Positions 9,722 through 39,605 of a stretch of 64,000 nt of DNA are shown in pieces. The position numbers and the translations under genes are program-made. Within the stretch, counting starts at the first letter, position 1; the number at the start of each line of letters is the position of its first letter. Source of the stretch: Cornus controversa (Eukaryota; Streptophyta; Magnoliopsida; Cornales; Cornaceae); contig CM048850.1 of NCBI GenBank assembly GCA_026545225.1, forward strand, positions 9,143,501-9,207,500. Reading direction: 5' to 3'. Below the pieces are notes generated by a model. It did no database searches. It saw only the letters and a program-made list of their open reading frames with translations, and was not told the origin of the DNA.

Positions 9722-10400
9722 CACTACAAGAAAATTAGTCTTTTACGACGGGCCAAAACTGCCTTAAATGACTTTTTAAGGCGGACAATCGCCTGCCCTC
9801 TATTAAGGTGTTATAATTACGAAGTTTTTTTAAAGGCATGCGGAAACTTTTTAAAGGCATTCAAAAATTGCCTTTAATAATTTCATAAACGCCTTTAAAA
9901 TAATTTTTCAAGGCGGTTATTTAGTGTCTTAAAAATTGAATTATTCAAGGTGGACCATACATGTTATAGAACTGTCATTATTTACGGTGGTCAGTGATCG
10001 CCTTAGAAGTTGAATTATTCAAGGCGGACCATGCATGTCATAGAACTGTCATTATTTACGACGGTCAGTTATCGCCTTAGAATCTTAATTATTAAGGGCG
10101 GTTGCTGACTGCCTTAAAATATTATTTATTTACGACGTGCAATGCTTGCCTTAAAATCTAATATTAAGGGCTGCTTCTAGCCGCCTTAAAAGCTAAACCA
10201 AATTTTTTTAAGGGCAGCTTTGGCCCACCTTAGAAGCTAAGATATTAACGGCGTTTGTAGACCGCCGTAGAAGGTAAAATATTAATGGTGTTTCTGACCC
10301 GCCTTAGAAGCTACCCACATGATATTATTAAGGGTGGGCTTGGCCCGCCTTAAAAGAAACTATTAAGGACGGCCATTGTTCGCCTTATAAAGTTTTTTTT
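9722..10400 (+). repeat. Left subterminal repeat region of the CACTA element
   Basis: More than a dozen diverged units alternate TTTACGACGG/AAGGCGG with GCCTTA/CGCCTTAA, so inverted short motifs sit every 30-60 bp. A tandem pair of about 75-80 bp lies around 9946-10082 (core AAGGCGGACCATRCATGT). In CACTA elements such subterminal motifs bind the TNPA-type accessory protein; that role is inferred from the family. Confidence 0.8.
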
Positions 10401-10981
10401 TTTTTTTGAAAATTCCTTTTTCTAATACCTCATTCCAAAAACCTGTGAAACCCAATCCAAAAACCTGTGATACCATACATACAATACCAACATCAATTTG
10501 TATCGGAAGCTAAAAACATTCAAACGAAAGTCAAGCCAAAAACACAGTTTGAATAACTTTCATCCCAACCCAAAAGTATGTGCATATCTAATTTGCGGAT
10601 TCAAAGCTAGCACATTCAGCATGCTTAAAAATTACAACCATTAACAAATATACAGTGGACATTTAAAAGACGAATATTCTAGCTACAAACGAACTTAAGC
10701 AAAACACTGAACTTGAAGACGTAGTTAAGAGGCAATCGAAGCCAAATGGAGCAAGTACAACAGGAGAGAAGGCTACTGCTACTGCTGCTCTGGTTCATTA
10801 TCTTGGGATTTAAAGAGAGAGGGTCAATGGAGCAAGTACAACAGAGAAAGCACAAAAATTTCAATATATAATGAAATGAAACAATGAATATATAATGAAT
10901 ATATAAAGAGGTATACTTGATATATATTCCTTTTCACTTTCCTTTATAAGTCTGCAAAAACTATTCTATGTACTAACATAG
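10401..10981. other. No gene recognised; internal left part of the CACTA
   Basis: Non-coding sequence with an A/T-rich run at 10389-10400. The pair CCAAAAACCTGTGA is repeated near 10435 and 10458, and a 20-base segment around GGAGCAAGTACAACAG is repeated near 10748 and 10828. The end (10940-10981, polypyrimidine then TAACATAG) acts as the intron 3' end before the captured exon at 10982. Confidence 0.5.
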
Positions 10982-11113
10982 ATTGTTTGCTCGAGGAACT
11001 CAAGTTGCCAAAATGGGAAGAGACAGTCGTTGGTGCAAGGACTAGATATGAGCAGATTATTAAGGCCCTTGCAGATAAATTTCCTTCAGAAAACTTGCTG
11101 CTTGTCACACACG
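10982..11113 (+). pseudogene. Captured exon of a phosphoglycerate-mutase-like (histidine phosphatase) gene
   Basis: An open stretch of about 44 codons reads LEELKLPKWEETVVGARTRY, then a segment ending LLLVTHG. The second part of histidine-phosphatase domains carries a catalytic His in a VTHG motif, and plant UBASH3/phosphoglycerate-mutase-like proteins have very similar text (RYEQIIKALAD). The exon is bounded by AG at 10980-10981 and GT at 11114-11115, splitting the codon after TH, as in a real splice junction. No other exon of this gene is present, so the N-terminal RHG catalytic motif is absent and no enzyme can be made. It sits just upstream of the TKI1-like segment on the same strand, inside the CACTA. 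Confidence 0.7.
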
Positions 11114-11335
11114 GTAACAACTTTATGGATTTCCATCCATTCATAGTTTTTTAATAGATTTATGATTAGAATACCATACGTATTTATTTTGGTGCCTCAA
11201 ATCATCTATAATATATAGGTACATAAACATATCCATGTCATACTTTTTGTTAAAGATAGAGTCTAACTTCCCATTATCCTTAGAAACTTTATCTCATTCT
11301 TATATGTATATGTGTGTGTGTGTGAGAGAGAGAGA

Positions 11336-11757
11336 GATTGATCTAGCGTGTCAGTGCAACTTTTTGGATGCGTCTTGGGTTCGGTTCGGTCTGGTTCTGA
11401 TGTAAAACAGAACCAAACCGGTCCCAGCAGTTCTAGATATATTAGAATCAAACCGAATTATTAGAATCAGTGGAACCGAACCGTAGATGATTGGTTCAAT
11501 GGTTTTGGACTTTCTTATATATATATACATATATAGATATACATATTAATCAAATGAAAAACCAAATCTGAAATATATATACACATAAGATGATCTTATG
11601 TATTGTGTTGTATGGCAAGTTATATTCTCTACCAATAACATGTATATTATATGATGTACATATATTTATATTATCACTAATGGTTTGGTTCAGTCCTTTT
11701 TGACCTCAAACCGGAATCGTACCAAACCGTACGATTTGGTTTGGTCCGATTCTAACA
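11336..11757. mobile_element. Possible MITE-like insertion between captured exons
   Basis: A segment of about 420 bp with GGTTCGGTTCGGTCTGGTTC (near 11379) at one side and inverted-sense ACCAAACCG/GGTTTGGTCC text near 11721-11745 at the other, with an AT-rich middle. Such AACCGAACC-rich AT-cored inserts are common small plant elements. No clear terminal inverted repeat or target duplication could be fixed. A TG/GA microsatellite (about 11310-11336) lies just left. Confidence 0.3.
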
Positions 11758-11843
11758 TTGTTTGTGCACCCCGAAGAATTTCCATCTGTTTTTTATAATT
11801 AACTTGTTTGTTCTACTTATCGTTGAGAACCTTCTATTTCTAG

Positions 11844-38880: not shown

Positions 38881-39001
38881 TACTAAGGTATTCGTATAAC
38901 AAATTAATATATAAATACAAAGGATGAAGAAAATCAAAGAAACTGAAACCATCACAAATGCTGGATGAATTAGAGTAAAAACACGAAGATAGGAATCTTA
39001 C

Positions 39002-39172
39002 CGAATGAAGGGGCTCAGAGATTGCTTCGAGGTGGAGAAATTGTGGTTTTTGTTGCTTCCATGGAGAGAAATTTGGGATTCAGTTCGACAAAGACTTTGC
39101 CTCAAGCTTGTTCAACGAAGCAAGAGAATGACGTCGATGAGAGGTTAGGGCCGTGTTTGGCTGAGCTTTGAT
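39002..39172 (-). other. Possible first exon with splice donor near the CACTA right end
   Basis: Minus-strand text ending CTTCATTCG/GTAAGATTCC (donor at 39000-39001) looks like a first, mostly untranslated exon. It holds a short start-codon frame (MEATKTTISPPRSNL) that stops after 15 codons. It lies upstream of the eL6 exons on the same strand, so it may be the captured 5' exon of that gene or a CACTA-derived leader. Confidence 0.35.
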
Positions 39173-39184
39173 CTAGAGAGGGTT

Positions 39185-39300
39185 AGAGATTTGGGGGTTT
39201 GGGTTGTGCACGAGAGTCAGAGAGGGTTGTAGAGATTTGGGGGTTTGGGTTGTGCACGAGAGTCAGAGAGTGTAGAGATTTGGGGGTTTGGGTTTTGCGC
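39185..39300 (+). repeat. Tandem repeat of 43-46 bp near the CACTA right end
   Basis: The unit AGAGATTTGGGGGTTTGGGT followed by TGTGCACGAGAGTCAGAGAG occurs at 39185, 39231 and, in part, 39274. Nothing coding is seen. Confidence 0.85.
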
Positions 39301-39339
39301 CGGAGTGAGAATTACATAGCACGATTTGGGGCTAAAAAA

Positions 39340-39605
39340 TTCAATCTTTCCACTATGGGCTTGGCCCGTCATATATAATAAACTTTCCACTACGGTTTAG
39401 GCCCGTCATGGATAGTACCTTTCTATGGCGGGCACACCTAGCTCGTCGTAGAAAGTTTTTTCTACGGCGGGTTATGAATGACCGCCTTAGAAAATAATCT
39501 TTCTAGGGCAGGCTACACGGGCCCGTCGTTAAATATACTTTTTACGACGGACTTCACGGGCCCGTCGTAAAAAACCCGTCATTAAAACCCAAAAATCTTG
39601 TAGTG
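39340..39605 (+). repeat. Right subterminal repeat region of the CACTA element
   Basis: Repeats of GGCCCGTCRT, TACGGCGGG and CCGCCTTAG, inverted relative to one another, ending CTTGTAGTG. The motifs match those at the left end (ACGACGGGCC), tying both termini to one element. Confidence 0.85.

Follow-up and report, generated by a model that had tools for sequence, protein, structure and literature searches.

A probable Pack-CACTA element with pieces of seven genes, nested in a decayed copia retrotransposon of Cornus controversa

Results

A probable non-autonomous CACTA insertion with later elements inside it

The 29,884 bp from position 9722 to position 39605 of the window (the whole 64-kb stretch of Cornus controversa DNA that was analysed) very probably represent a single non-autonomous CACTA insertion of the Pack-CACTA type that bears gene fragments. 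As judged from its sequence, the cargo consists of pieces of seven genes in both orientations, with introns kept. Two further transposable elements lie between the ends.

17751 to 30757, minus strand: nested gypsy (Ty3) LTR retrotransposon with target duplication TTAGT, a later insertion and not cargo
33536 to 34103, no strand assigned: nested TRIM-like element of 568 bp with target duplication ATTAT, not cargo

When the gypsy and TRIM-like elements were removed, about 16.3 kb remained, indicating that 45% of the 29,884 bp is later insertion. A preliminary description of this DNA had presented it as a giant Pack-CACTA element carrying pieces of at least six unrelated genes in both orientations. 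The class and the nature of the cargo stand, but the size does not, because nested retroelements, which had been overlooked, make up about 13.6 kb of it.

The gypsy element is 13.0 kb long and young, with LTRs that show 99.3% identity across 1423 columns (K 0.0071), and it contains an open gag-pol reading frame of 1766 aa that matches gag, protease, reverse transcriptase, RNase H and integrase models. A downstream reading frame of the same element (20993-22240) matched Transposase_32, annotated as 'putative plant transposon protein', with an E-value of 1.4e-8 and a score of 35.3 bits, which is below the cut-off of 45. The TRIM-like element sits between two of the gene pieces described below (OSCA and PP2C), its terminal repeats show 98.4% identity over 254 columns, and it contains what we take, by eye, to be a tRNA-Met-like primer site.

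Both ends share terminal repeats, a subterminal motif and a target duplication

The boundaries of the element are as follows.

9719 to 9721, no strand assigned: left copy of the target site duplication TGT, from the sequence and the joined flanks
9722 to 10400, plus strand: left CACTA end, with the terminal inverted repeat CACTACAAGA and about 680 bp containing subterminal repeats of the 37-bp type (ACGACGG / AAGGCGG)
39340 to 39605, minus strand: right CACTA end, with subterminal repeats and the terminal inverted repeat
39606 to 39608, no strand assigned: right copy of the target site duplication TGT, from the sequence and the joined flanks

The terminal inverted repeat occupies 9722-9731 on the plus strand, and its reverse complement occupies 39596-39605, all 10 bp being identical. 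Inverted termini with TGT on either side agree with what had been described previously. By itself, CACTACAAGA is weak evidence, since 6 matches with at most one mismatch were found where 4.16 were expected. The subterminal motif was more restricted. Exact ACGACGG occurred five times in the 64-kb window, against an expectation of 0.67 and with five or more copies in none of 100 shuffles, and all five copies were close to a terminus, at most 343 bp from the left one or 83 bp from the right one. Two were in the left 679 bp, three in the right 266 bp and none in the 15,353 bp between, which comprise the element between its ends minus the gypsy and TRIM-like insertions. With one mismatch allowed, the corresponding counts were 5, 9 and 5. 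The earlier statement that ACGACGG marks both ends is therefore upheld, as the exact motif is confined to the termini in this window. The left and right subterminal regions aligned with each other only locally. Because the two ends share the terminal repeat, the subterminal motif and the target duplication, we assigned them to one element, which displays the features of the CACTA (En/Spm) superfamily: a terminal inverted repeat, a 3-bp target duplication and subterminal repeats at both ends.

Pieces of seven genes lie between the ends

The following pieces were recognized in the cargo.

11002 to 11113, plus strand: histidine phosphatase (phosphoglycerate mutase-like) exon piece, with a GT donor at 11114
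11844 to 13735, plus strand: TSL-kinase interacting protein 1 (TKI1) piece, four exons
17218 to 17466, minus strand: PPR (PLS-type) gene piece
33024 to 33170, minus strand: OSCA1/CSC1 channel exon, flanked by splice signals
34284 to 34421, minus strand: protein phosphatase 2C 62-like (PP2C-62-like) piece
36554 to 37080, plus strand: malectin-like receptor kinase piece
38527 to 38794, minus strand: ribosomal protein eL6 piece, exons 38527-38633 and 38731-38794

Sequence searches recovered all six gene pieces that had been named before (histidine phosphatase, TKI1, PPR, OSCA1, malectin-like receptor and eL6). The TKI1 exons (11844-12067, 12166-12407, 12480-12708 and 13166-13735) are separated by retained introns and contain one stop codon, at 12023. 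Their best match was the Cornus florida protein P0001 (E 1.5e-200, 76% across 100% of the query), and 422 aa aligned to this 481-aa protein. The histidine phosphatase piece best matched Cornus florida P0122 (E 3.2e-14, 92% across 78% of the query, with 47 of the 48 candidates giving a match) and gave an E-value of 1.8e-18 in a second search. Because the Pfam match to His_Phos_1 was marginal (0.0042, below the cut-off) and nothing matched in PDB, its identity rests on these two protein matches. The PPR piece matched a synthetic PPR-DYW protein (E 1.6e-21) and PLS9-PPR (E 2.5e-21), and the Pfam PPR model gave 0.018, below the cut-off. For the OSCA1 exon, the sequence search gave an E-value of 3.5e-12 and Pfam RSN1_TM one of 4.5e-8. 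The malectin piece was matched in two frames (E 1.4e-38 and 1.1e-12); it contains two adjacent stops and a frameshift and breaks off in the middle of the domain, at profile position 175 of 331. The eL6 piece had two PDB matches, one with an E-value of 7.4e-15, whose best stretch covered eL6y residues 85-123, and one with an E-value of 1.5e-5 to residues 56-75 of another eL6 chain. Its identity rests on these matches, because Pfam gave no confirmation of eL6 from the two joined exons.

The seventh piece best matched Cornus florida P0121, a PP2C-62-like protein (E 3.8e-12, 84% across 77% of the query, with one of two candidates matching), and a second search gave 83% and an E-value of 3.0e-16. 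It is most likely the unnamed minus-strand exon of the preliminary description, which had given no coordinates for it. A minus-strand piece does exist, but so does a second candidate on that strand, the reading frame at 35747-36013. This reading frame looks coding and is a possible eighth piece; its 39-aa part had no match in Pfam and its 61-aa part had none in PDB.

GT/AG signals and introns surround the TKI1 exons, and splice signals were also found at the OSCA, histidine phosphatase and eL6 pieces, in agreement with the splice sites noted earlier. Because introns and splice signals are kept, capture most likely took place at the DNA level. The mixed orientation was likewise borne out, with the histidine phosphatase, TKI1 and malectin pieces on the plus strand and the PPR, OSCA, PP2C and eL6 pieces on the minus strand. 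Damaged as they are, the pieces probably encode no functional protein, but chimeric transcripts would be possible through the retained splice sites.

No transposase domain was detected

A domain scan across twelve frames of non-gypsy DNA revealed no transposase domain, although the scan is weak for short relics. Among the seven known pieces, these whole-frame scans listed only malectin; the OSCA exon was absent from them although it had been found by Pfam when given alone, and the histidine phosphatase, PPR and eL6 pieces were likewise absent. Within that sensitivity, our result is consistent with the previous remark that no transposase is visible, and the transposase gene of an autonomous CACTA element was not found. 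CACTA ends that enclose host coding DNA, together with the lack of a detected transposase domain, characterise a Pack-CACTA. Because no such domain was found, transposase from elsewhere would be needed: a CACTA transposase made at another place in the genome would bind the ends and move the unit. NCBIfam gave nothing in the three left plus frames, and Rfam gave nothing on the window at gathering scores. Pfam matches to DUF1619_N (which lies opposite the OSCA exon), WH_Rok, NOD2_WH, YmiC, DUF5767 and Cytochrom_B559a were below the cut-off and implausible, and were discarded.

An internal repeat lies at the cargo junctions

A repeat of 0.43-0.49 kb occurs in three same-strand copies at junctions of the cargo.

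16471 to 16958, plus strand: internal repeat, copy 1
35011 to 35545, plus strand: internal repeat, copy 2
37085 to 37564, plus strand: internal repeat, copy 3, adjoining the broken malectin exon

The copies are 96-97% identical in pairwise comparison, have staggered ends and are themselves composed of diverged units of about 192 bp. The sequence GAACCATAAACAT is common to the junction of copy 3 with the malectin piece and to copies 1 and 2.

Stepwise acquisition of the cargo could have followed either of two routes. In one, neighbouring related elements would be mobilised as one, together with the DNA between them; in the other, repair of the gaps left by excision would be interrupted and would switch templates. 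Gap repair with template switching is a model of gene capture. Joint mobilisation of a pair of adjacent related elements is described in PMC13317346 and PMC8903248. PMC8978399 cites Rubin and Levy for a mechanism, and PMC4290129 cites double-strand break repair. A search within the element for remnants of former element ends found none, and the route through fused neighbours therefore gains no support. A three-copy repeat with staggered ends, next to a broken malectin exon, fits the template-switching route slightly better than fused neighbours. The repeat may also be simply a dispersed repeat.

The element is known here from a single copy, and its movement together with the cargo is thus a proposal. 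The CACTA ends could be real while repair that used ectopic DNA as template added much of the cargo once the element was in place, so that the whole unit never moved. The three staggered repeat copies at piece junctions would suit this account, as would the presence of GAACCATAAACAT both at the copy 3/malectin junction and in the other two copies; the order of events that it needs is inferred rather than directly seen. However, the 3-bp duplication is clean and both ends are intact, and we consider patching in place possible but unlikely.

Splice phases agree between the histidine phosphatase exon and the first exon of TKI1, and the five exons together would be in frame with one stop codon; such agreement would arise by chance about one time in three. 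It could be supposed that the element is an exon-shuffling cassette, that a transcript through it fused histidine phosphatase with TKI1, and that the cargo was gathered by template switching at the internal repeat. We regard this combined proposal as quite improbable. If true, it would have joined two genes with Cornus florida homologues on different contigs.

Homologues of three pieces are on different contigs

In Cornus florida, the homologue of the histidine phosphatase piece is on a contig of 102.5 Mb, that of TKI1 on one of 140.4 Mb and that of PP2C-62 on one of 115.4 Mb. The histidine phosphatase and TKI1 homologues are on contigs of 43.8 and 63.6 Mb, respectively, in Nyssa sinensis and of 22.57 and 22.78 Mb in Actinidia eriantha. 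Contig differences of this kind could also come from different assemblies of one species, and the two Actinidia contigs differ by only 0.2 Mb. A contiguous block elsewhere had been named in the preliminary description as evidence that would speak against piecemeal capture. The three Cornus florida contigs argue against a single captured block for the three of seven pieces that parent mapping covers; the other four (PPR, OSCA, malectin and eL6) are unmapped. One or two contiguous blocks captured at once could account for two same-strand groups, histidine phosphatase and TKI1 on the plus strand followed by PPR, OSCA and PP2C on the minus strand, and the four unmapped parents leave room for such blocks. 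Against this, the Cornus florida homologues are spread over contigs of three sizes and the malectin exon is broken in mid-domain, which makes block capture very improbable.

The element sits in a decayed copia retrotransposon

The CACTA element lies inside a decayed copia retrotransposon. When the flanks were joined with a single TGT, they read ...SEAIIHFKKFV and, across the junction, NLVENEKIAGLRDL..., so that an integrase reading spans the junction; this reading is independent of the content, because it is the same whatever DNA lies between the ends. The decay of the copia element is apparent from a stop upstream in the joined-flank frame and a frame shift about 14 codons downstream. Searched separately with Pfam, the left flank matched integrase core profile positions 4-45 (E 0.0019) and the right flank positions 65-102 (E 0.15), both below the cut-off but in the expected order, and the right flank also gave a clear match to SH3_retrovirus (E 1.8e-21). 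Given the Pfam results on each flank, a putative copia integrase at the insertion site is weakly supported. Copia LTR-like repeats at 5498-6892 and 42006-43500 are 91.9% identical over 1394 aligned columns (K 0.0865). Right-flank matches to HAT_Syf1_M and Zot were below the Pfam cut-off and implausible, and were not retained.

That the two ends derive from two different CACTA elements flanking the DNA by chance is very unlikely: the local-only alignment of the subterminal regions and two more exact CACTACAAGA matches inside, at 30765 and 36739, could be taken to favour it, but the internal matches lack nearby subterminal repeats and look like chance rather than nested ends (the one at 36739 falls within the malectin piece), whereas the true ends share an exact motif that the rest of the window lacks, are each flanked by TGT and allow an integrase reading over the joined flanks.

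For the single CACTA insertion, the order of events can be read from the nesting, which would place copia first, CACTA second and gypsy third. The CACTA element would have entered the older copia element, and the gypsy and TRIM-like elements would have entered the CACTA element afterwards.

Elsewhere in the window, three reading frames at 47837-50616 on the minus strand resemble, by eye, parts of a UDP-glycosyltransferase gene. A 1.5-kb direct repeat with 88% identity (54077-55627 and 62425-64000) perhaps represents the LTRs of another copia element.

Discussion

CACTA elements with pieces of several genes are already in print, and the present element has a rich cargo without introducing a new principle. 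Soybean Tgm-Express1, which is called non-autonomous (PMC2613891), packs pieces of five unrelated genes into 5.7 kb, and these are spliced into chimeric transcripts (PMC1947982). Like the present element, it combines CACTA ends with exon and intron pieces of unrelated genes; it differs in lying in a gene intron and in having chimeric transcripts, whereas the Cornus element is about 16.3 kb long and known from DNA alone (PMC1947982). The Pack-CACTAs of Arabidopsis and maize share with it CACTA terminal inverted repeats, no transposase match and coding DNA from at least one locus, and in maize they were reported to contain more distinct loci than any other Pack-TYPE elements (PMC8903248). That survey considered clusters of copies and removed singletons, in contrast to the one copy here (PMC8903248).

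On wheat chromosome 3B, 140 CACTA capture events involved 145 genes, over half of them classified as pseudogenes (PMC4290129). CACTA-mediated capture of genes and gene pieces is common to both cases, with about one gene per event in wheat versus seven in the present element (PMC4290129). Grapevine Cactavine-5 is also a CACTA element with a PPR piece in opposite orientation, but that piece is the one captured gene described for it and lies downstream of a transposase reading frame, whereas no transposase was detected in the present element (PMC2528002). Outside the CACTA superfamily, maize Helitrons reach 39 kb and up to nine gene pieces (PMC6431247). A search of open-licence PMC articles for papers with both whole words 'Cornus' and 'CACTA' gave no hit.

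Seven pieces in a CACTA element of about 16 kb place it at the rich end of the published elements compared here and within a known kind; a non-exhaustive literature search gave no maximum number of pieces for CACTA elements. The earlier judgement that so many pieces are unusual is overstated, given the five pieces of the soybean element and the number of loci in maize Pack-CACTAs.

Multi-piece Pack-type elements bear on how plant transposons gather and shuffle exons. The Cornus element combines seven pieces with a series of events ordered by nesting, and its three-copy repeat at the piece junctions could help to separate the fusion of neighbouring elements from template switching.
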